DNA of 64,000 nucleotides from assembly GCA_008933615.1 (NCBI GenBank), contig WBUR01000010.1, positions 1-64,000 of the forward strand, in the 5' to 3' direction. Positions 46,945 through 58,138 of this stretch are shown one piece after another (the stretch's first letter is position 1; each line of letters opens with the position of its first letter). The notes beneath the pieces are model-generated. The model had not been told where the DNA came from. It saw only the letters and a list, made by a program, of their open reading frames with translations, and did not search any database. Origin of the DNA: a bacterium (GTDB lineage Bacteria; CLD3; SB21). Made by a program: the position numbers and the translations under genes.

Positions 46945-47853
46945 ATGTCTGGCAAGAGTCGACGCGATTTTCTCAAAAAAACCGCAATAATCGGGGCAGG
47001 GGTTACGGGGCTATCTGTCTCACCGGCAAAAGCAGCCCCCAAGAATATTTTATCGGCAGATCGAATGGGGGTTCTTGTAGATACTACAGTGTGCGTGGGA
47101 TGCAGAAATTGCGAGTGGGCTTGCAAGGATGCCCATAATTTATCTGCCGGAGAGTTATTTTCTTATGAAGATAGAAAACCTATGGAAACTAAAAGAAGGC
47201 CTGATCACACTGCATTGACCGTTGTGAATGAGTATTCACATGGCAAGAATTCAAATCTGCCTGTTGATGTAAAAGTACAGTGCATGCATTGCGATCAACC
47301 GGCTTGCGTATCTGCTTGTATTGTTGGAGCTTTTTCAAAACAGGAAAACGGAGCAGTTATTTGGGATACCGATATGTGTATTGGCTGCCGTTATTGTCTC
47401 GCGGCATGTCCATTTCAGATCCCGGCGTTTGAGTATGATAAGGCGCTTGATCCGCTGATCATGAAATGTGATTTTTGCTTTAATAGAACAAAAGAAGGAA
47501 AACTTCCTGCTTGCGTTGCTATCTGTCCGGTCGAGGCGCTCACGTACGGACCCAGAAGCGAACTTATTAAGATTGCTCGTAATCGCATCAAGAGAGATCC
47601 GGATCGTTATGTGGATCATATACTTGGTGAACATGAAGTAGGCGGCACTTCGTGGCTGTACCTGTCATCAAAAGAATTTAAGGAACTGGAATTTCCAAAT
47701 TTAGGGAATAACCCTGCGCCAGGTGTTTCCGAATCAATTCAGCATGGAATTTTTGCATACTTCGTTCCTCCGGTTTCGCTTTATGCACTGCTCGGCGGAA
47801 TTATGTGGATTGCAAAACGCCGCAAAGAGTTAAAAGAGGAGGAACACGTATGA
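46945..47853 (+). CDS. HybA/NrfC-like periplasmic 4Fe-4S ferredoxin with Tat signal
   Basis: A protein of 302 residues. The Tat signal is SRRDFLKKTAIIGAG (twin Arg near residue 5), with probable cleavage after SPAKA. Four Cys clusters follow for four [4Fe-4S] centres: CVGCRNCEWACK, CMHCDQPACVSAC, CIGCRYCLAACP and CDFCFNRT...CVAICP. A C-terminal hydrophobic helix (about 268-288) followed by basic residues anchors it, as in HybA. It should carry electrons between the HybB/NrfD-like quinone subunit and the cytochrome encoded next. A GAAAGGAAC site precedes the ATG. First gene of the cluster. Confidence 0.92.
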   Translation: MSGKSRRDFLKKTAIIGAGVTGLSVSPAKAAPKNILSADRMGVLVDTTVCVGCRNCEWACKDAHNLSAGELFSYEDRKPMETKRRPDHTALTVVNEYSHGKNSNLPVDVKVQCMHCDQPACVSACIVGAFSKQENGAVIWDTDMCIGCRYCLAACPFQIPAFEYDKALDPLIMKCDFCFNRTKEGKLPACVAICPVEALTYGPRSELIKIARNRIKRDPDRYVDHILGEHEVGGTSWLYLSSKEFKELEFPNLGNNPAPGVSESIQHGIFAYFVPPVSLYALLGGIMWIAKRRKELKEEEHV

Positions 47854-49097
47854 ACCACGAATCTGTAAATCCCGTTCCCATTAAGCATAGATTTTTTACA
47901 CCCGGCGTCATAGTACTCGTCATGATTGCGCTAAATGGCATTGTTTTCTTAATGGGCAGGTTTTTCTTCGGACTAGGCGCGGTTACCAATCTTAATAATC
48001 AATATCCCTGGGGATTATGGATTGGAGTGGATGTCGCCGCCGGTGTTGCTCTTGCTGCAGGAGGATTTACCACTGCCGCACTGGGTCATGTTATGCATCG
48101 TGAAGAGTATCATGCCGTTATACGTCCTGCCTTGCTGACGGCTATGTTGGGTTATACTTTTGTTGCTTTTGGAGTTTTTGTCGATATCGGAAGGTGGTAT
48201 TTCATTTGGCATCCGCTGATTATGTGGAACGGCAACTCCGCTTTGTTTGAAGTAGGCATTTGTGTTATGATATATATGAGCGTTCTCTACATTGAATTTC
48301 TCCCCATTTTCACAGAAAGATTTATAGGAAAAGTTAATTTGCCCGGTGTATTGTCCGCTTTGAACAAACCTACAGATAAAATACTGAGATTTCTTGATCG
48401 TGGACTTTCAAAGACCATGTTCATATTCATAATTGCGGGTGTCGTACTCTCGACGCTTCATCAATCCTCGCTCGGCACCTTAATGGTCATTGCAGGGCCA
48501 AAGATGCATCCGCTTTGGCAAACACCGGTTCTCCCACTCTTATTTTTGCTATCTGCGGTTTCCGTTGGTTTCCCAATGGTCATTTTTGAATCTCTAATCG
48601 CTTCACGGTCACTTAAATTAAAGCCGGAAATGCACGTTCTTTCACGATTAGGATCCATGATTGCGCCTTTACTTGGAATTTATCTCGCATTCAAAATTGG
48701 CGATATCGTCATTCGAGAGACCTTTGTATATTTGGGGGAACTTAATACGGCAAGTGTTATGTTCACGATCGAAATTTTGTTTGGAGTAATTATTCCGTTA
48801 CGAATGTTCCTTTCACCGAAAGTTTTAAAATCGCCCCCGTTGCTATTTACGGCATCCGGGCTGGTTGTGTTTGGAGTTCTGTTAAACCGAATTAATAATT
48901 TTGTGGTTGCTTACACTCCGCCATACTCGACGGAATCTTATTTCCCGTCCTTCGGTGAAATTTCCGTAACGGTTGGATTCGTTGCGATGCTGGTTCTAGC
49001 CTACCGTTTTATTGTCTTAAATTTTCCTGTTATAAGTTTGCCGGGCAAACAAACCGCACAGCCCACCAAATATAGCATCAGAGGGGTGGAACAATGA
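47850..49097 (+). CDS. HybB/NrfD-like integral membrane quinone-interacting subunit
   Basis: About 415 residues from ATG 47850, which overlaps the ferredoxin stop (ATGA) and has an AGGAGG site; upstream codons lie inside the ferredoxin gene. About ten membrane helices. Typical blocks are PWGLWIGVDVAAGVALAAGGF, GRWYFIWHPLIMWNGNSALFEVGICVMIY and LHQSSLGTLMVIA. NrfD/HybB proteins bind (mena)quinone without cofactors and pass electrons to the attached ferredoxin subunit. Direction of flow is not decidable from sequence. It overlaps the next gene by four bases. Confidence 0.92.
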   Translation: MNHESVNPVPIKHRFFTPGVIVLVMIALNGIVFLMGRFFFGLGAVTNLNNQYPWGLWIGVDVAAGVALAAGGFTTAALGHVMHREEYHAVIRPALLTAMLGYTFVAFGVFVDIGRWYFIWHPLIMWNGNSALFEVGICVMIYMSVLYIEFLPIFTERFIGKVNLPGVLSALNKPTDKILRFLDRGLSKTMFIFIIAGVVLSTLHQSSLGTLMVIAGPKMHPLWQTPVLPLLFLLSAVSVGFPMVIFESLIASRSLKLKPEMHVLSRLGSMIAPLLGIYLAFKIGDIVIRETFVYLGELNTASVMFTIEILFGVIIPLRMFLSPKVLKSPPLLFTASGLVVFGVLLNRINNFVVAYTPPYSTESYFPSFGEISVTVGFVAMLVLAYRFIVLNFPVISLPGKQTAQPTKYSIRGVEQ

Positions 49098-50236
49098 AAA
49101 ACATTCTAATTAGTTTGTTTCTGATCGCAGCACTTTCAGCCGGAGTTAATGCACAGCAAAGCCCGGGTAAAGATCATGCCAAGCTTAGTATCAGTTGCAA
49201 AACCTGTCATACATGCGATGTACCAAAGAAAGATGAACCGTGCCTGGTCACATGTCCCCGTGAAAAAATAGTGACGATTTATCAAAAACCGGAGCAAACT
49301 CCCGAACTGATAATCATGGATCAGATATTGGATCGATACGGGCCTGTTTACTTTTCGCATAAGTTACATGCGCAAATGTCTATTATGTCCGGAGGTTGTG
49401 AGAATTGCCACCATCACAATACCTCGGGTCCCATTTTGCAGTGTAACAGCTGCCATGAATTATCACGAAAGCGGGAAGATGTCAGTTTACCTGATCTAAA
49501 GGGCGCTTATCACAGGCAATGCATGGATTGTCATCGGGAATGGAGTCATGAAACAGGTTGCAATTCGTGTCATAAATTGAAAAAAGATCTTAAGGATACG
49601 AAACAAGAAGATACTCATAAAAAGTATTTAGGAAAAGATCATCCTGTTATTTTGGAGCCGTCACACATCAGTTATGAAACCAATTCGGATAAAGGGAAGC
49701 TTGTTACATTTTATCATGACGATCATACGAAAAAATTTGGATTGTCCTGTGCCGGTTGCCATAAACAGGAAACATGCGCTAAATGTCACGACGTAAGTAA
49801 AAAATTCAATGGCAAAATAAAGTCTGCAAATGTAGACAAGTCTTTTGATGAGCAGCACAAAAACTGTATTTCATGCCACAAAGACGATAAATGCAGTTCG
49901 TGTCACAGCGATACAAAGCTTGAGCCTTTTGACCATGCGCTTAACTCCGGGTGGGCGTTGGGTAAACATCACGTGCGGCTTTCATGCGCCAAATGTCATG
50001 GATCAAAACTTCCGTATAAAAAAATCGACAATGCCTGTTTAAGCTGCCATAAAGATTGGAACAAAGATAATTTTAAACATTCGGTCACGGGCTTACAGTT
50101 AGATGAAACTCATTTTGAACTTGGTTGCGACGATTGTCATTCAGGTAATAATTATGCATTAAAACCAAACTGCACTGGCTGTCATGATAATTATGTATAT
50201 CCAAAACAAAAGCCGGGAAAGTTGGTTAATAAATAA
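49094..50236 (+). CDS. Thirteen-heme c-type cytochrome
   Basis: A protein of 380 residues with a Sec signal peptide (about 1-20, ending GVNAQ). I count thirteen CXXCH motifs: CKTCH, CENCH, CNSCH, CMDCH, CNSCH, CAGCH, CAKCH, CISCH, CSSCH, CAKCH, CLSCH, CDDCH and CTGCH. Extra His residues (FSHKLH, HVRLSC, DETHFEL) are probable distal ligands. The spacing resembles class III/NapC-type electron-wire cytochromes and not NrfA nitrite reductase, because no CXXCK is present. It should accept or donate electrons for the ferredoxin/HybB pair in the periplasm. No export partner (beta-barrel) is encoded nearby. Confidence 0.92.
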   Translation: MKNILISLFLIAALSAGVNAQQSPGKDHAKLSISCKTCHTCDVPKKDEPCLVTCPREKIVTIYQKPEQTPELIIMDQILDRYGPVYFSHKLHAQMSIMSGGCENCHHHNTSGPILQCNSCHELSRKREDVSLPDLKGAYHRQCMDCHREWSHETGCNSCHKLKKDLKDTKQEDTHKKYLGKDHPVILEPSHISYETNSDKGKLVTFYHDDHTKKFGLSCAGCHKQETCAKCHDVSKKFNGKIKSANVDKSFDEQHKNCISCHKDDKCSSCHSDTKLEPFDHALNSGWALGKHHVRLSCAKCHGSKLPYKKIDNACLSCHKDWNKDNFKHSVTGLQLDETHFELGCDDCHSGNNYALKPNCTGCHDNYVYPKQKPGKLVNK

Positions 50237-50288: not shown

Positions 50289-52151
50289 ATGTTTAAACAA
50301 ATAGGATTCCGCCTTATATCCGTCGTTGCGTTAGCGTCGCTGATTATTATTGGCGTATTTGCTTACTTCAATGTCAAATCGCAAAGCAGCAGCTTTATCT
50401 CGGAGGTTGAAAGACATGCTAATCAGCTGGGTGAAACGGTTGTAGCCAGCACTCGCTTTGATATGATGCTGAATCAAAGAGACAGAATTCAACAAACCAT
50501 CAATTCGATAGGTAAGCAGCCGCAGATCAGAGATGTTCGGATCATCAACAAGGTCGGGGAAATAATTTATTCTTCCAATCCTGCTTATATAAATAAGATG
50601 GTCGATAAGCAGGCTGAAAGTTGTTACGCATGCCACTCGGAGGATCAGCCGCTTGAACAAATTTCGATTACTGAACGAACCAGGATATTTAAAATCCATC
50701 AAGACTCTAACCGGGTACTTGGCATAATTACCCCGATTTACAATGAACAATCCTGCTGGCAGTCTGACTGTCACGCACACCCTAAAAATCAAAAAGTTCT
50801 GGGAGTTTTGGATGTTTCTATCTCACTTGCAGAGATTGATAAAGCAATTATCACCAGAGAATGGGAAATTGTGATCTTTGCGGTTATAGCTATCATTTCG
50901 CTCGGATTATTAATCGCTCTATTTGTGCGGCGCTGGGTTTCGAATCCCGTGCATGAATTACTTAATGCAACTCAACAAGTCGGCCAGGGCAACCTGAATT
51001 GTACAATTAAGTATCTAGGCGATAATGAAATTGGAATGCTCGGCGAATCATTTAATAATATGACAAAGAAATTGTCCGAAGCAAGACTGCAGCTTTTCCA
51101 ATCGGATAAAATGGCCTCGCTTGGAAGATTAGCCGCAGGCGTGGCGCATGAAATTAATAATCCGCTAACGGGTGTTCTAACTTATAGCAGTTTCCTGCTT
51201 AAGAGGACAAAAGATAATCCGGAACTCCAGGAAGATCTGAAAGTCATTGTCAGAGAAACGTTGCGTAGCAGAGAAATAGTAAAGAGCCTGTTAGATTTCG
51301 CTCGCCAGTCCGTTCCGAAGAAGGGTGTTGCGGATATAAATGCTATAATTGATAAAGCCATTGCTGTCATTGAGAAGCAGCTAACGATCAAGAAAATAAA
51401 AATTGTCAAGCAGTCTGAAAATGATCTTCCCAAAATAACGGTTGACGCAAATCAGATGCAACAAGTGTTTATTAACCTTTTTGTCAATGCATCGGACGCG
51501 ATCGGAAAAGAAGGCGGTACCATAAAAGCATTCACAAAACAAATATCTCTTTCACCGTTTGGGGTCGCTCAAATAAAAAAGGCGACTTGTCCAAAACGGC
51601 ACAGTCTAATCGACAATGAATTCAAGATAGACGGGCTCCCGGCATTGAAAGTTAAAGTTGTTTCTCATAAAGAGGAAGGTATAGTTCACTTTGATCCCGT
51701 ATACGGAAAGCGTCGGAATCATTTTAATCCCGGTTATAAAATAGTCGCGGATACAAAATTTGTTTGCCCGGACTGCAATAGTTCCCTTGTTCCGCAGGAT
51801 AAACCCTGTCCCAACTGCGGAGCTCCCGTTCTATCTTTTGAAATAAGCGGGCAAGGCGTTTACGAAGTATGTTCGTCTGAAAAGAGCGATTGGGAGAAAT
51901 GGGACTTTGTTGACTCCGCCGGACTGAAAGAATATATAGAGATAAGAATTTCTGACAGCGGCAGCGGAATTAGTAAAAGTGATCTCCCGAAGATCTTTGA
52001 ACCATTTTTCTCCACGAAAGGACAAAAAGGAACCGGGCTTGGTTTAGCAGTCATTTGGGGAATAATTGATAATCATGATGGAACGATCAGCGTTGAAAGT
52101 GAAGAGGGTAAAGGAACTACATTCATTATCCGTCTTCCATTGAAAGCCTAG
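50289..52151 (+). CDS. Heme-motif sensor histidine kinase with zinc-ribbon-like insert in the ATPase domain
   Basis: A protein of 620 residues. TM1 is at about 8-28 and TM2 at about 192-212, enclosing a periplasmic domain that has C112YAC115H116 and C156WQSDC161H162, i.e. one CXXCH and one CX4CH. HAMP follows (about 213-265), then HisKA with H287 in GVAHEINNPL and HATPase with N-box NLFVNASDAIG, G1 DSGSGI and G2 GTGLGLA. Between N-box and G1, residues ~425-545 are an insertion with C434 and two CxxC pairs (C493/C496, C507/C510), a likely metal ribbon. The periplasmic motifs suggest covalent c-type heme and redox or gas sensing. The start lies 52 bases after the cytochrome gene. Confidence 0.88.
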   Translation: MFKQIGFRLISVVALASLIIIGVFAYFNVKSQSSSFISEVERHANQLGETVVASTRFDMMLNQRDRIQQTINSIGKQPQIRDVRIINKVGEIIYSSNPAYINKMVDKQAESCYACHSEDQPLEQISITERTRIFKIHQDSNRVLGIITPIYNEQSCWQSDCHAHPKNQKVLGVLDVSISLAEIDKAIITREWEIVIFAVIAIISLGLLIALFVRRWVSNPVHELLNATQQVGQGNLNCTIKYLGDNEIGMLGESFNNMTKKLSEARLQLFQSDKMASLGRLAAGVAHEINNPLTGVLTYSSFLLKRTKDNPELQEDLKVIVRETLRSREIVKSLLDFARQSVPKKGVADINAIIDKAIAVIEKQLTIKKIKIVKQSENDLPKITVDANQMQQVFINLFVNASDAIGKEGGTIKAFTKQISLSPFGVAQIKKATCPKRHSLIDNEFKIDGLPALKVKVVSHKEEGIVHFDPVYGKRRNHFNPGYKIVADTKFVCPDCNSSLVPQDKPCPNCGAPVLSFEISGQGVYEVCSSEKSDWEKWDFVDSAGLKEYIEIRISDSGSGISKSDLPKIFEPFFSTKGQKGTGLGLAVIWGIIDNHDGTISVESEEGKGTTFIIRLPLKA

Positions 52152-52154
52152 ATT

Positions 52155-52961
52155 ATGAGCAAATCAACAAAAATATTAGTCATCGATGACGAACAGGTGA
52201 TTATCGATGCCGTAACCAAGATCTGTTCGCTTGAGAGTTATTCAGTTGACTTTGCTTTGGGCGTAAAAAGTGCAATTGAGAAAATTTCTCAAAGCTATTA
52301 CTCAATTATTATATGCGATATCATGATGCCCGACGGCGACGGATTTCAAATTCTGGACGAACTTCGAAATCGGAATGTTGACAGCGCATTAATAATGATG
52401 ACGGGTTATTCCACCGTTGAAAATGCAGTCAATTCGCTTTACCAGGGAGCCGTTGATTTTATACCCAAGCCCTTTACGGTAGATGAATTGCTTAGTTCGG
52501 TATTTCGCGCAAATAAGTATCAGGAAATAAAAAAGAGACAAACGGATCTTTCGGCCCAAAATAACCCGAGCGGTTTTCTTTACGTTTCTTGTCCTGCAAA
52601 ATATTTACGTTTAGGTTATTCGAGTTGGATGTTCCAGGAGAATGACGGCAGCGTTCTCATTGGCGCGTGCGATCTCTTTTTAAAAACCATCGATTCAGTT
52701 AAAGAAATAGAACTTCTAGCATCAGAGGAAGAGATAGTGCAAGGCGTGAGCTGTGCCGCCATTAAGTCAGGCGATGATAGAGCACATAACATTCTTTCGC
52801 CTGTTTCCGGCAGGATAATTGAAGTCAATCACAAACTCAATTTGAATACGAACATGATTGAGAAGGATCCCTACTTTGAAGGTTGGATTTATCGCGTTAT
52901 TCCTGCTGATATTGCCTATGAAATAAAAACGTTGGTTCCTTATAATTCAGATAGATTGTAA
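52155..52961 (+). CDS. Response regulator with C-terminal GcvH-like domain
   Basis: A protein of 268 residues. The receiver (about 5-122) has its acid pocket at IDDEQ, phospho-acceptor D55 in ICDIMMPDGDG, and K107 region FIPKPF. The C-terminal part (about 145-255) aligns along its length with glycine-cleavage H protein: YLRLGYSSWMFQENDGSVLIGACD, then SPVSGRIIEVN (215 on) and EKDPYFEGWIYRVIPAD. At the lipoyl-Lys position, seven residues before SPVSG, it has D208; the nearest Lys is four residues further away. It is therefore probably not lipoylated and the fold may be a binding or sensor module. Three bases separate it from the kinase gene. No DNA-binding domain is present. Confidence 0.87.
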   Translation: MSKSTKILVIDDEQVIIDAVTKICSLESYSVDFALGVKSAIEKISQSYYSIIICDIMMPDGDGFQILDELRNRNVDSALIMMTGYSTVENAVNSLYQGAVDFIPKPFTVDELLSSVFRANKYQEIKKRQTDLSAQNNPSGFLYVSCPAKYLRLGYSSWMFQENDGSVLIGACDLFLKTIDSVKEIELLASEEEIVQGVSCAAIKSGDDRAHNILSPVSGRIIEVNHKLNLNTNMIEKDPYFEGWIYRVIPADIAYEIKTLVPYNSDRL

Positions 52962-52997
52962 ATTGGCAAAGAAATATTAATCTTTAGGAGATATATC

Positions 52998-54161
52998 ATG
53001 GCACTATTAATTCTTGCAGTAATAATATTTATCATTGCGGATATTGTTATCCGGATGGTCGTGAAGCGCCTCACCGACAATAAGTTAAAAAAAGAGCGCG
53101 AAATGGTGTTGCAGGAAAGCCTCAAACTGGATTTTACCAATGAAGCGAAGACATTGAAGCGTGCGGAAGTCGCAAATCCGAAAGCTAAGATTTTGTGCGT
53201 TGACGATGAAGAAGTTATTCTTAGCAGCTTTAGAAAAATTCTTGTTTTGGATGGTTATGCTGTGGATACAGTCGAAACAGGACAGGAAGCGCTCGGGATG
53301 ATTCAAAGACATCATTATGATTTTGTTTTTACAGATCTAAAAATGCCTTTGATGGATGGAGTAGAAGTAACGAAATCCGTTAAACATTTGCGGCCGGATA
53401 TCGACGTTATCATTATTACGGGATATGCGTCAGTGGAGACTGCCGTCGAAACCATGAAATACGGCGCAATGGACTATGTTCAAAAACCGTTTACTGAAGA
53501 TGAACTGCTTGATTTTGTGAAGAAAACACTGATTAAACGCCAGGATAAGATTCAGAAACAACTTAAACCTAAAGTCCATATTTCCCATGTCCCCGCATCG
53601 GGTGATTTTGTTAAAGGTGAGTTTTCAATTCCCGGTGGGGTTTTTATTTCCAAGAATCATACGTGGGTTAGTATGAACCAGGAAGGAATTGCGAAAATCG
53701 GTATTGATGACTTTGCTAAGAAACTTATTGGACGAGTCTATGCGATCGAACTACCAAATCTTGGCATGAATGTAAAAGCGGGCCAGCCCTTATTCACTAT
53801 TAAACAAGGAAACAGAAGCATTACGTTTAATTCCCCGGTAAGCGGAAAAGTATCGCAGATAAATACTTTACTTAAGGATAACCTGGATGCTCTGGACATT
53901 ACTCCATACGAAAGAAATTGGGTTTGCGCCCTCGATACAGACAACTTGGATAACGAAATCAAAAGTATGAGTATTGGAAAATCAGCCGTGGCTTTTTATC
54001 AAGAAGATATTCAAAAATTCAAGGACCTTATGGAAGATCTTCTTAAGTCTGAAAAAAGAGAAGGGGAGTATATTGAGAATGGACAAATATATATCGGGCA
54101 ACTAGAAAAACTAAACGATATGAACTGGCAAAAAGTGGTTGCAGAATTTTTTGTAAGGTAA
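52998..54161 (+). CDS. Membrane-anchored response regulator with GcvH-like domain
   Basis: A protein of 387 residues. An N-terminal membrane helix (about 3-22) followed by basic residues tethers it to the inner membrane, unusual for a response regulator. The receiver (about 63-180) is intact: VDDEE, D113 in VFTDLKMPLMDG, VQKPF. A GcvH-like domain (about 215-320) follows: ISKNHTWVSMNQEGIAKIGIDDFAKKLIGRVYAIELPNLG, VKAGQPLFTIKQ and SPVSGKVSQIN (279 on). The lipoyl-Lys position is N272. A helical C-terminal tail (about 325-387) has no recognised domain. A TTAGGAGAT site precedes the ATG. Output is probably protein-protein contact, not DNA binding. Confidence 0.87.
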   Translation: MALLILAVIIFIIADIVIRMVVKRLTDNKLKKEREMVLQESLKLDFTNEAKTLKRAEVANPKAKILCVDDEEVILSSFRKILVLDGYAVDTVETGQEALGMIQRHHYDFVFTDLKMPLMDGVEVTKSVKHLRPDIDVIIITGYASVETAVETMKYGAMDYVQKPFTEDELLDFVKKTLIKRQDKIQKQLKPKVHISHVPASGDFVKGEFSIPGGVFISKNHTWVSMNQEGIAKIGIDDFAKKLIGRVYAIELPNLGMNVKAGQPLFTIKQGNRSITFNSPVSGKVSQINTLLKDNLDALDITPYERNWVCALDTDNLDNEIKSMSIGKSAVAFYQEDIQKFKDLMEDLLKSEKREGEYIENGQIYIGQLEKLNDMNWQKVVAEFFVR

Positions 54162-54320
54162 GGCCGCTCCATTCCACTGTTTTGCGTATAGGAATGATTA
54201 TTACCGCCCGAGTAAAGGTTGTTTTCTAATGAACCGTCGTCGTCATGTTTCATGCATCCACTTATATAATGAAGTAAGTCTTGCGGCCATGCAGGCCGTT
54301 ATAGATTGATAAGGATAATC

Positions 54321-55058
54321 ATGAAAACATTTACAGAAGATACGCGGTGCGTCTGGATGACATCGAATGTGGTCGAGTATAGGCTGTGTGACAAGCAGTT
54401 TGAATGTGAACGATGTGAGTTTGACAGAGTTATGCGTAATTGCGCATATTCAGGTGAAAAGTCAGTTTTGAGTGAAAAAAAGACTGAAGATATTGACAAG
54501 ATTGACCTCTTGCTTGATGGGCTGATGTATGAACACTACAACGAACGTTTGATCTATCTGCCCAATAGTCTGGTTCTGGATGAATTATCTGATCAAACAT
54601 TTCGTTTAAGCCTGAGTTCTTTTGCTGTCCATTTTTTGGATAATGTGTTTACGGTCGTACCAGGCCGCCAAGGAACCGAGATTCGAAAAGGTCAACCTTG
54701 TTTGATGCTGAGCGGCGCATGGGGGGGAATGACGGTGAATTCTCCCATTCACTTCTTATATCAGGATAAGTCGGACGACAGTATCCAGCGTGACCAAGCA
54801 CACTGGGTTATAGGTATTATTGAAGCGGAAAAAAATGAAATTGCACGGGAATGTCTATCACAACAAGAGTGGCAACAACAGATTATCGAGTTATCCCGCA
54901 TGCTCATACAGCACAAGATTCAACACCCCGGCACGGATCGGACTGCTGATGACGTTGAACATAAGATTCAGCATTTGTATCAACGAATAGGTACGGAAGA
55001 TTACTTAAGTATGCTCAAGGTTCTTTTCAGACAAAAGATAAAAATCCGAAGTGTTTAA
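54321..55058 (+). CDS. GcvH-like protein with N-terminal Cys cluster
   Basis: About 245 residues from ATG 54321. The N-terminus carries C10 (CVWM), then C23, C29 and C32 (CDKQFECERCEFD) and C41, a probable metal or redox site. The middle (about 75-170) is a GcvH-like fold: LSLSSFAVHFLDNVFTVVPGRQG, IRKGQPCLMLSG, SPIHFLYQ and HWVIGIIEAE; the lipoyl-Lys position is Trp. The C-terminal ~70 residues are helical. No receiver domain is present. A GC-rich hairpin (CGGCC-ATGCA-GGCCG, 54284-54298) lies just before the ribosome site. It completes a trio of GcvH-like proteins with the two regulators upstream. Confidence 0.78.
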   Translation: MKTFTEDTRCVWMTSNVVEYRLCDKQFECERCEFDRVMRNCAYSGEKSVLSEKKTEDIDKIDLLLDGLMYEHYNERLIYLPNSLVLDELSDQTFRLSLSSFAVHFLDNVFTVVPGRQGTEIRKGQPCLMLSGAWGGMTVNSPIHFLYQDKSDDSIQRDQAHWVIGIIEAEKNEIARECLSQQEWQQQIIELSRMLIQHKIQHPGTDRTADDVEHKIQHLYQRIGTEDYLSMLKVLFRQKIKIRSV

Positions 55059-55112: not shown

Positions 55113-55152
55113 CAGCCGGTCGCAAGATAACTTGCGGCTGATTTTTTTTTTT
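55113..55152 (+). terminator. Rho-independent terminator after the third GcvH-like gene
   Basis: CGCAAG (55121-55126), loop ATAA and CTTGCG (55131-55136), extended by CAGC/GCTG with a bulge, then about eleven T. It divides the cluster into two transcription units. Confidence 0.85.
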
Positions 55153-55192: not shown

Positions 55193-56785
55193 ATGCAGGT
55201 TGGGTTGCAACATAAATTTAGCGTCAAACTGATCTTGGTTATCTCTGGAATACTCCTCGCTAACCTTGCCCTGTATACCTATTTTACGACCTCCCATCTT
55301 AAATCGGACCTCATACTAGCCTATTCACAACATGCGTATAATCTCAGCGATGTGATTAAAAAATCAACACGTTATTCCATGCTCCTTAATCGCAGTGAGG
55401 ATGTGCATCAAATAATTAATACAATCGGCACAGAAAAAGATGTCGTTCACATTCGCATATATAATAATACCGGAACGATTATGTTTTCCACGAATTCCAC
55501 GGAAACTAAACATGCCGTTGATGTGAATGCCGAAGCCTGTGTTATCTGCCATACTAAATTCGGAGTATTTGCCAGCGTTCCTATCCAAGATCGAATCCGT
55601 ACATATACTCAGGACGGAAAAAGACTGATGGGGTTGATAAATCCCATTGAGAATGAAGCAGATTGTTATAATTCAAACTGTCATGCGCACAGTGCAGAGC
55701 AGGAAATTCTGGGCGTGCTTGACGTGGTAATATCCGTCGATAATATTGAGAAGATCATACGTTCCAATATTGCGAATATCGCTTATAATGCTATTGTTGT
55801 TACATTTACCATATCCTTTTTCTGCGGACTTTTTGTCACCGTCATGCTGAATCGCCCCATGGTTCAAATTAACAAGGGAATTCAGGAAATAGGGAAAGGA
55901 AATTTGGATTATAAGATCTTGCTCAATTCCCACGACGAATTTGGCCGACTTGCGAAAAGGTTTAATGATATGTCCGCTAAATTGCACGCCGCTTATAAGG
56001 AAATCAAAAATTGGTCAGACACGCTGAATACAAGGGTAAACCAAAAAACGGAAGAACTGAAAAAACTCTATGATCAGGTGATGCAAATTGAAAAATTAGC
56101 CTCGCTCGGAAAACTATCTGCTACCGTTGCACATGAATTGAACAATCCGCTCGAAGGAATCCTGACCTACAGCAAATTGATCGCTAAGCAGCTGGTGAAA
56201 GTTCAAAAAAAGAACGAATATGAAAAAGTATTAAGATATCTCTCTATGATTTCCGATGAATCTGCCCGATGCGGCAGGATAGTAAAAGATCTGTTGATTT
56301 TCTCACATCGTGACGAGGAAGTGTTTATTCGCGAGGATGTCCACGACATTATCAGAAAATCCATGGCTCTCATACGTCATCACCTTCAAATATATAATAT
56401 CGAAGCCGTAGAAAACTATAAAGCTTCGGATTCAACGATTGTCTGTAATCCTCAAAAAATTCAGCAAGCTTTGCTCGCGATATTCATGAATGCTATCGAA
56501 GCTATGAACGCCGGAGGAAAGCTCATCATTGATACTGCAACGGACGGCCAGGAAATTCACATTCACATCAAAGATACCGGACTTGGAGTTGATCCGAAAG
56601 ATCTCCCGCATATTTTTGAGCCGTTTTATACGACCAAATCCGGAGGAAAAGGAACGGGTTTAGGATTAGCCGTCGTATTCGGTATCATCAATCACCACAA
56701 TGGCAGCGTGGTTGTAGAAAGCACTTCGCCGGATGGCACAGCGTTTAAGATTACATTACCGCTGCCGAAAAAATCAGGTTATTAA
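55193..56785 (+). CDS. Heme-motif sensor histidine kinase (second copy)
   Basis: A protein of 530 residues. TM1 is at about 10-30 and TM2 at about 197-219. The periplasmic domain repeats the motif pair of the first kinase: C116VIC119H120 and C158YNSNC163H164, with ILGVLDVVIS after it as in the other copy (VLGVLDVSIS). HAMP is followed by a short coiled coil (about 268-300), HisKA with H314 in VAHELNNPLEGILTYS, and a regular HATPase (DTGLGV, GGKGTGLGLA) without the Cys insert. A TTGGAG site precedes the ATG. The adjacent sigma-54 regulator starts four bases after its stop and is the obvious partner. Confidence 0.9.
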   Translation: MQVGLQHKFSVKLILVISGILLANLALYTYFTTSHLKSDLILAYSQHAYNLSDVIKKSTRYSMLLNRSEDVHQIINTIGTEKDVVHIRIYNNTGTIMFSTNSTETKHAVDVNAEACVICHTKFGVFASVPIQDRIRTYTQDGKRLMGLINPIENEADCYNSNCHAHSAEQEILGVLDVVISVDNIEKIIRSNIANIAYNAIVVTFTISFFCGLFVTVMLNRPMVQINKGIQEIGKGNLDYKILLNSHDEFGRLAKRFNDMSAKLHAAYKEIKNWSDTLNTRVNQKTEELKKLYDQVMQIEKLASLGKLSATVAHELNNPLEGILTYSKLIAKQLVKVQKKNEYEKVLRYLSMISDESARCGRIVKDLLIFSHRDEEVFIREDVHDIIRKSMALIRHHLQIYNIEAVENYKASDSTIVCNPQKIQQALLAIFMNAIEAMNAGGKLIIDTATDGQEIHIHIKDTGLGVDPKDLPHIFEPFYTTKSGGKGTGLGLAVVFGIINHHNGSVVVESTSPDGTAFKITLPLPKKSGY

Positions 56786-56788
56786 GTT

Positions 56789-58138
56789 ATGGAAAACACA
56801 AAATTACTCGTTGTAGATGATGAAAAGATCGTGCGTGAGTCGCTTCATCATTGGTTCGAAGAAGAAGGTTATCTTGTTGATACGGCCGACAGGGCCGAAG
56901 ATGCGCTTAACAAATTTGATAAAGGAAAATACGACCTGTGTTTATTGGATATGAAGATGCCGGGAATGAGCGGATTGGATTTACTAAAAAAAATGAAGCA
57001 AATCGATCCTGATTCCATTGTCATTCTTATCACAGCGTATGCCTCCGTCTCGTCCGCGATCAAAGCGTTGAAAGACGGTGCCTATGACTATATCACTAAA
57101 CCGGTAGATCCGGAGGAACTTGAGCATCTCGTAAAAAAGGCTGTTGAACAAAAGAAATTGCGCAATGAGAATGACCAATTAAAGGAAAATATCGAAGAGA
57201 TCATCCGTCCTGATAATCTGATTGGCGAAAGCGCGCAAATGAAAAAAATATATGAGTTGATCAATACCGTTGCACAAACCGATACAACGGTTCTGATACG
57301 AGGCGAAAGCGGGACCGGTAAAGAGCTGGTGGCCAAGGCGATTCATATGAACAGCAAACGTAAATATTTTCCTATTGTCACGGTTACGTGTGGAACACTG
57401 GAGGAAACGATTTTAGGAAGTGAACTATTCGGCTATGAGAAGGGCGCTTTCGCCGGCGCGCATCACCGCCGCAAGGGAAAATTTGAAATGGCTGATGGAG
57501 GCACTATTTTTCTGGATGAGATCGGTTCAATATCCACTAAGTTGCAAATCGATTTATTGCGCGTTCTCGAGTCGAGGCAGTTTACGCGAGTCGGGGGATC
57601 GGAGACGCTCTCAAGTGATTTTCGAATCATTGCCGCGACTAATGAGTTACTGGATGAAAAGGTAAAGGCAGGTAAATTTCGGGAAGATCTCTACTACCGT
57701 CTGAATATATTTACAATCGTTATTCCGCCGCTGCGCGAACGTAAAGAGGATATTGCCGTGCTGTCTGAATATTTTGTTTCTAAATTTGCTGTGGCTATGA
57801 ACAAAAACAACAAAAAATTCTGCCCTGATGCTATGGACTTTATGATAAAGTACGATTGGCCGGGGAATGTTCGCGAACTGGAAAATGCAGTTGAACGCGC
57901 AATGGTCGTAGGCAAGTCTGAAACCATACAAGTCGACGACCTCCCGTTCCACGTTTCTCAAAACGTTCAATACGATGACACGAACCTGAGTTTGTCTGCC
58001 ATGGAGCGAAAACATATAAAAAATATCCTTGATAAGAACCATTGGAATATTTCGCGCAGCGCAGAGGTGCTGCAAATTGACAGGGTCACGTTATACCACA
58101 AAATTGAAAAATATGGATTTCGAAGAAATAAACGATAA
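56789..58138 (+). CDS. NtrC-family sigma-54-dependent response regulator with GAFAGA loop
   Basis: A protein of 449 residues. The receiver (about 4-120) has phospho-acceptor D54 (LLDMKMPGMSG). The AAA+ domain (about 143-380) has Walker A GESGTGKE (172-179), Walker B GGTIFLDEIG, and Arg fingers in FREDLYYRLNIF. The sigma-54 contact loop at 219-224 reads GAFAGA instead of GAFTGA. The Fis-type helix-turn-helix is the last ~45 residues (ILDKNHWNISRSAEVLQIDRVTLYHKIEKYG). The Thr in that loop is important in PspF and NtrC for sigma-54 contact, so activation may be altered or lost. Partner of the kinase upstream. Confidence 0.93.
   Translation: MENTKLLVVDDEKIVRESLHHWFEEEGYLVDTADRAEDALNKFDKGKYDLCLLDMKMPGMSGLDLLKKMKQIDPDSIVILITAYASVSSAIKALKDGAYDYITKPVDPEELEHLVKKAVEQKKLRNENDQLKENIEEIIRPDNLIGESAQMKKIYELINTVAQTDTTVLIRGESGTGKELVAKAIHMNSKRKYFPIVTVTCGTLEETILGSELFGYEKGAFAGAHHRRKGKFEMADGGTIFLDEIGSISTKLQIDLLRVLESRQFTRVGGSETLSSDFRIIAATNELLDEKVKAGKFREDLYYRLNIFTIVIPPLRERKEDIAVLSEYFVSKFAVAMNKNNKKFCPDAMDFMIKYDWPGNVRELENAVERAMVVGKSETIQVDDLPFHVSQNVQYDDTNLSLSAMERKHIKNILDKNHWNISRSAEVLQIDRVTLYHKIEKYGFRRNKR

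Follow-up and report, generated by a model that had tools for sequence, protein, structure and literature searches.

GcvH-like proteins without the lipoyl lysine form a cross-phylum family encoded beside FeS-NrfD and heme-kinase genes and include response regulators

The proteins described here share with the H protein of glycine cleavage (GcvH, PF01597) a barrel-sandwich fold and the HxW, GxxD/T, SPxxG and DPYxxGW motifs. They differ from it in that the lipoyl lysine is replaced, the N-terminus carries a receiver, a transmembrane segment or a Cys-rich region, most members have a C-terminal extension and the neighboring genes encode redox proteins. GcvH-like proteins encoded in redox gene clusters outside of glycine cleavage are already known as the LbpA proteins of sHdr, which are linked to Hdr-like genes and keep the lipoyl lysine in all 95 aligned LbpA sequences (PMC6067878). 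In the proteins studied here the lysine is lost and the partner is a FeS-NrfD pair; we ruled out an identity with sHdr-LbpA, as there is no lysine and the neighbors are FeS-NrfD, cytochrome c and kinase genes.

The redox genes resemble those of the Hmc and Hyb complexes (HmcBC, HybAB), which likewise combine a Tat-exported FeS protein that has a membrane tail with a NrfD subunit and a multiheme cytochrome. The proteins in the window, by which we mean the whole 64,000-nucleotide stretch of DNA analyzed, nevertheless score below the curated cut-offs of HmcB, HmcC and HybB, and because these equivalog cut-offs are not reached we call the FeS-NrfD pair Hmc/Hyb-like, with membership unproven. To our knowledge, neither a GcvH-like subunit nor a heme kinase or archaemetzincin accompanies the known Hmc and Hyb complexes. 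Periplasmic c-heme Cache sensors have been described (PMC3460858, PMC12889525), and the kinases found here are similar to those of the sCache_heme (GSU0582/GSU0935) type in fusing a periplasmic CxxCH sensor to a histidine kinase, with a weak match to PF21563, but differ in having a second motif, CxxxxCH, and a fixed linkage to the NrfD/GcvH-like cluster. A search of PMC12889525 found no mention of glycine cleavage or NrfD. Single-domain or non-DNA-binding response regulators provide the last comparison, since they too have the full phosphoacceptor residues in the receiver and no DNA-binding domain, but here the output domain is a GcvH fold. In the open-licence literature searched we found no account of the module described below or of a GcvH fold as receiver output, and as a unit of redox signalling or regulation the module is apparently undescribed.

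All genes of the locus lie on the forward strand of the window, in the order FeS protein, NrfD, 13-heme cytochrome c, histidine kinase HK1, P0001, P0002, P0003, histidine kinase HK2 and AtoC-type regulator. The first encodes an HmcB/HybA-like 4Fe-4S protein (46945..47853; NCBIfam HmcB 3.8e-99, under the curated cut-off, and HybA 1.8e-71) with the sequence features expected of Tat export (RRDFLKK signal) and a C-terminal membrane anchor (TM 269-287). It is followed by a HybB/HmcC-like membrane subunit of the NrfD family (47805..49097, probable start ATG 47850; NrfD 4.1e-19, HybB-type 1.2e-105, HmcC 4.7e-82) and by a 13-heme c-type cytochrome (49094..50236) with 13 CxxCH motifs and matches to Cytochrom_CIII and Cytochrome_C7. 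Domain and motif searches identified HK1 (50289..52151), whose gene ends 3 bp upstream of P0001, and HK2 (55193..56785). Each has two transmembrane segments (9-27 and 194-212 in HK1, 9-27 and 193-211 in HK2) and a periplasmic sensor with both heme-binding motifs (CxxCH at 112 and CxxxxCH at 156 in HK1, 116 and 158 in HK2), which are the features of a c-heme sensor kinase. Between the kinases are P0001 (52155..52961), P0002 (52998..54161) and P0003 (54321..55058), the last followed by a terminator-like hairpin with a T run (55117..55149), although the terminator scan found such sites in the region no more often than in shuffles. The AtoC/NtrC-type sigma-54 response regulator (56789..58138), found by the same domain and motif searches, has GAFAGA in place of GAFTGA and may not activate sigma-54 normally. 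A sigma-54 promoter search of the window returned 22 sites, below the chance mean of 27, a sigma-70 scan gave no excess over shuffles and Rfam gave no match at the gathering threshold.

A preliminary description of this DNA had placed Asp208, Asn272 and a Trp at the lipoyl-lysine position of P0001, P0002 and P0003, and had held that the rest of the fold was kept. All three residues were borne out. In P0001 and P0002 the residue 7 before the S of SPVSG is D208 (codon 52776-52778) and N272 (codon 53811-53813), respectively. Both proteins match GCV_H above the Pfam cut-off (3.1e-17 and 1.1e-21) over GcvH-like domains at 52623-52937 and 53649-53993, and P0002 continues into the C-terminal extension (to 54158). 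EKDPYFEGW is present in P0001, while P0002 scores 66.1 bits against the NCBIfam gcvH equivalog, for which the cut-off is 115.85. The tip residue of P0001 was assigned from sequence alignment, and those of P0002 and P0003 also from AlphaFold models built on alignments. In the P0002 model (pLDDT 86.6) the GcvH-like part superposes on the H proteins of E. coli, Thermus and pea with TM-scores of 0.91-0.93 by target, and N272 falls in the turn joining strand 264-270 to strand 273-278, the hairpin tip that carries the lipoyl lysine in H protein. In both proteins the domain adjoins a receiver (PF00072, 2.7e-25 in P0001 and 9.8e-31 in P0002) with a complete Asp-Asp/Asp/Thr/Lys phosphoacceptor pattern. 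Of the three proteins encoded in the window, two are response regulators with a GcvH-like fold as output domain. P0002 additionally begins with a transmembrane segment (4-22) followed by basic residues, and from these and the usual receiver residues its main part is predicted to be cytoplasmic.

The fold is thus kept in P0001 and P0002, but P0003 is degenerate: its DPYxxGW motif is gone and it matches the family profile at 7e-5. Counting from the probable start at ATG 54321, the residue 7 before the S of SPIHF is W134 (codon 54720-54722; W139 if a TTG start is used). P0003 alone has no Pfam or NCBIfam match, yet it shares the motif C-x12-C-x5-C-x2-C (C10, C23, C29 and C32; 54348-54416), invariant in 22/22 aligned proteins, with 21 others that all match GCV_H, and it keeps a remnant of the C-terminal extension. 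H proteins were the top matches to its AlphaFold model (pLDDT 70.9; E 2e-5, TM-score 0.67-0.75 by target), and in this moderate-confidence model W134 is predicted at the tip, flanked by strands 126-132 and 135-140, as N272 is at the tip in P0002. The assignment of P0003 as a probable GcvH-like protein rests on family context and this moderate model, which together ruled out the candidate reading, based on the missing Pfam match, that it is unrelated to GcvH.

Across the family, the tip site in 217 rows is G in 47, S in 46, D in 24, N in 23, K in 18 (8%) and other residues in the remainder, a count that sets aside 3 of 21 K rows (one from a canonical GcvH, two from the Lys-bearing GcvH-like proteins at locus L045). 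The 8% is close to the expectation from chance composition, whereas 19 canonical GcvH controls have K in 18 and R in 1. Among the receiver-fused relatives, lysine at the site occurs in 0/23, three rows of each type being near-identical same-genus copies. The proposal in the preliminary description that the fold is non-lipoylated is therefore well supported by sequence. Lipoylation could in principle have moved to another lysine, K204 in P0001, which the preliminary description had singled out, or K269 in P0002; some lysines do lie near the tip, LipA is encoded in the genome and 8% of the family has lysine at the site. At the K204 position, however, homologues have K, R, F, Q, V, I, L or A, the K269 position (-10) is 8 K and 3 R in 11 relatives of the P0002 type and lies in a strand, off the tip, in the model, and P0003 has a tryptophan with no lysine near it. 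Conservation and position in the model rule out these shifted lysines as lipoylation sites, and we consider it highly improbable that the domains are still lipoylated. As a separate observation, tandem GcvH-like proteins that keep the lysine (ESGKYVG) occur in an unusual context at L045:8441-9365.

On another contig of the same genome, a gene for a canonical GcvH with the lysine (EAVKTVSD) lies ~3 kb upstream of GcvP, and LipA and GcvT are encoded in the genome as well. Given this separate set of genes, P0001-P0003 are not glycine-cleavage H proteins, and the candidate reading that they are the genome's own H protein was rejected on the same canonical GcvH. The presence of GcvH, GcvP, GcvT and LipA, along with the high fold similarity to H protein, would also suit decoys that compete for GcvP, GcvT or lipoyl transferases and thereby regulate glycine cleavage or the lipoate relay. 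The genes adjoin redox genes and not glycine-cleavage or lipoate genes, however, which makes such decoys improbable. The family, whose usual annotation is "glycine cleavage system protein H", appears unconnected with glycine cleavage or lipoate.

The family is set apart from ordinary GcvH by the C-terminal extension, G-x-T-x-x-D-G-G ... W ... FF/FL in a profile made from relatives (A2); matches of ordinary GcvH to this profile stop ~40 positions earlier, and most relatives have the extension. An extension-bearing set, often of 2-4 copies, is carried by ~25/290 genomes that were sampled by kinship and then mostly as one per family. A scan of named genomes returned 208 relatives (alignment A3), and the best 80 of the 208 bear record labels of Gemmatimonadota, Syntrophaceae, other Deltaproteobacteria, Rokubacteria, Nitrospinae, Nitrospirae, Acidobacteria, Bacteroidetes, Ignavibacteria/Chlorobiota, Calditrichota, KSB1, Eisenbacteria, Glassbacteria, Schekmanbacteria, Abyssobacteria, Poribacteria and Planctomycetes. 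The relatives are spread over about fifteen bacterial phyla. By N-terminus, 134 are anchored by a transmembrane segment, 29 have the Cys4 "CWM" type under a strict pattern (more under a looser one), at least 14 have a second Cys-rich type, 12 have a receiver and 11 a transmembrane segment plus receiver. In an unrooted tree, canonical GcvH is recovered as a single group (support 100/96). The P0001-type domains, which are without the C-terminal extension, form another (100/98) nearest to it, and P0002-type domains fall among membrane-anchored members, within 95/98. These two placements may reflect more than one loss of the lysine.

Conserved Cys and His residues make ligand or cluster binding the main rival to the explanation that we propose below. 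On this view the proteins would work in the cytoplasm, either sensing redox state or a ligand or carrying electrons, and the vacated barrel and the N-terminal Cys clusters would bind an Fe-S cluster, zinc, heme or quinone. It is favored by the invariant Cys4 motif of the P0003-type proteins, by the existence of a second Cys-rich type and, beside the tip of P0001-type domains, by a -4 His in 12/12 and a Cys ahead of the hairpin in 11/12. Nevertheless, the Cys clusters are absent from P0002 and from the commonest, membrane-anchored type, and across the whole family the tip itself has no conserved ligand-like residue, so we judge this rival unlikely, though worth serious consideration.

The three proteins belong, beyond what the preliminary description had claimed, to a family that spans phyla and has a fixed set of partners. 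Among 80 family loci, FeS genes were found in 68, NrfD in 67, a sigma-54 regulator in 56, a heme kinase in 54 and an archaemetzincin in 52, compared with 0, 0, 3, 0 and 0 at 20 control loci of canonical GcvH; the 80 were picked by similarity to membrane-anchored members and come mostly from MAGs, many of them on short contigs, and the counts are lower bounds and phylogenetically uneven. The commonest order is GcvH-like, FeS, NrfD, GcvH-like, GcvH-like (Cys4), kinase, regulator and archaemetzincin. A GcvH-like gene directly abuts FeS or NrfD on the same strand in 60/70 loci having either, the FeS protein has a clear Tat motif in 45/64, and CxxCH plus CxxxxCH precede the kinase core in 69/84 kinases longer than 450 aa. 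The archaemetzincin, a protein whose biological role is described as scarcely understood (PMC3427221), adjoins the kinase/regulator pair on the same strand in 46/50 loci (among L038, L039, L041 and L095-L174), and the full HExxHxxGxxHCx4CxM...CxxC motif is present in 53/63. In one fragmented MAG (L043, 1869-3809) a single ORF joins NrfD, a transmembrane segment and a GcvH-like domain, which may be an assembly error; a similar fusion in L092 was discarded, its N-terminal part being in the wrong frame.

Three Bacteroidota/Ignavibacteria MAGs (L114, L121, L122) carry a receiver form and a free form of the module side by side, the receiver form consisting of NrfD, a 13-heme or other cytochrome, a kinase and two receiver-GcvH proteins. 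The window holds the complete receiver form and, of the free form, only P0003, HK2 and the regulator; the FeS, NrfD and archaemetzincin genes of this second module are not in the window, and a search of the source genome found no archaemetzincin. This loss, together with the degenerate P0003, could point to decaying paralogues without function, which we find scarcely credible given that P0001, P0002 and P0003 appear to be under constraint (dN/dS 0.04-0.14 within the genus) and that the family persists in many phyla.

The use of the fold as an interaction or ligand module, suggested in the preliminary description, fits the NrfD/FeS complex, the heme kinases and the receiver fusions nearby, as far as gene content can indicate. 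The best explanation as a whole, to which we give slightly less than even confidence, is that these lipoate-less GcvH-fold proteins act in a redox complex of the NrfD type, as subunits or as regulators, the receiver members being under heme-kinase phosphorylation. The family would have given up the role of lipoyl-lysine carrier and would serve as rigid cytoplasmic subunits or regulators of a quinone-reactive membrane complex made of the periplasmic FeS protein, NrfD and the multiheme cytochrome c. Because the Tat-exported FeS protein and the hemes face the periplasm and the receivers are necessarily cytoplasmic, we expect the side of NrfD that faces the cytoplasm to be where the GcvH-like domains lie. 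The periplasmic c-heme kinases may sense the redox state of the cytochrome or another heme ligand, and HK1 would then phosphorylate the receivers of P0001 and membrane-anchored P0002, altering the docking of their GcvH-like domains on the cytoplasmic NrfD face and so tuning electron flow directly. HK2 would act on the sigma-54-type regulator, and P0003 may represent the Cys4 type in the second module, which is partly decayed. The computations establish the fold, the loss of the lysine, the family, the conserved gene set and the receiver, heme-binding and Tat signatures in the sequences, while physical docking, phosphotransfer and the direction of regulation are inferred. P0001-type domains may have a different partner, since they lack the C-terminal extension and are nearer canonical GcvH in the tree. 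Counting against a role in the complex, some Bacteroidetes/Ignavibacteriales loci (L162, L166) have pairs of membrane-anchored GcvH-like genes without FeS, NrfD or kinase genes within the stretch analyzed. The same kind of pair without complex genes or kinase was seen on shorter contigs (L163, L164, L167).

A broader proposal, which we advance only tentatively, is a cross-phylum redox-signalling module in which these proteins are dedicated cytoplasmic subunits of FeS-NrfD and, in some lineages, response-regulator outputs, through which the heme kinase would control the respiratory complex directly, by phosphorylation and not by transcription. If this is true, many uncultured bacterial lineages would have the family as a conserved component of an energy-metabolism complex, two-component systems would gain a new type of output, and bacterial archaemetzincins would gain a recurrent genetic context.

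Two further features of the signalling genes were observed. The GAFAGA of the regulator in the window occurs otherwise only in a same-genus relative (L034), and GAFTGA is found in 63/69 relatives. HK1 has a Cys4 zinc-ribbon-like insert within its ATPase domain (residues ~485-520), and the same CxxC...CxxC insert is present in five related kinases encoded upstream of receiver-GcvH proteins (L035, L036, L037, L114 and L121).
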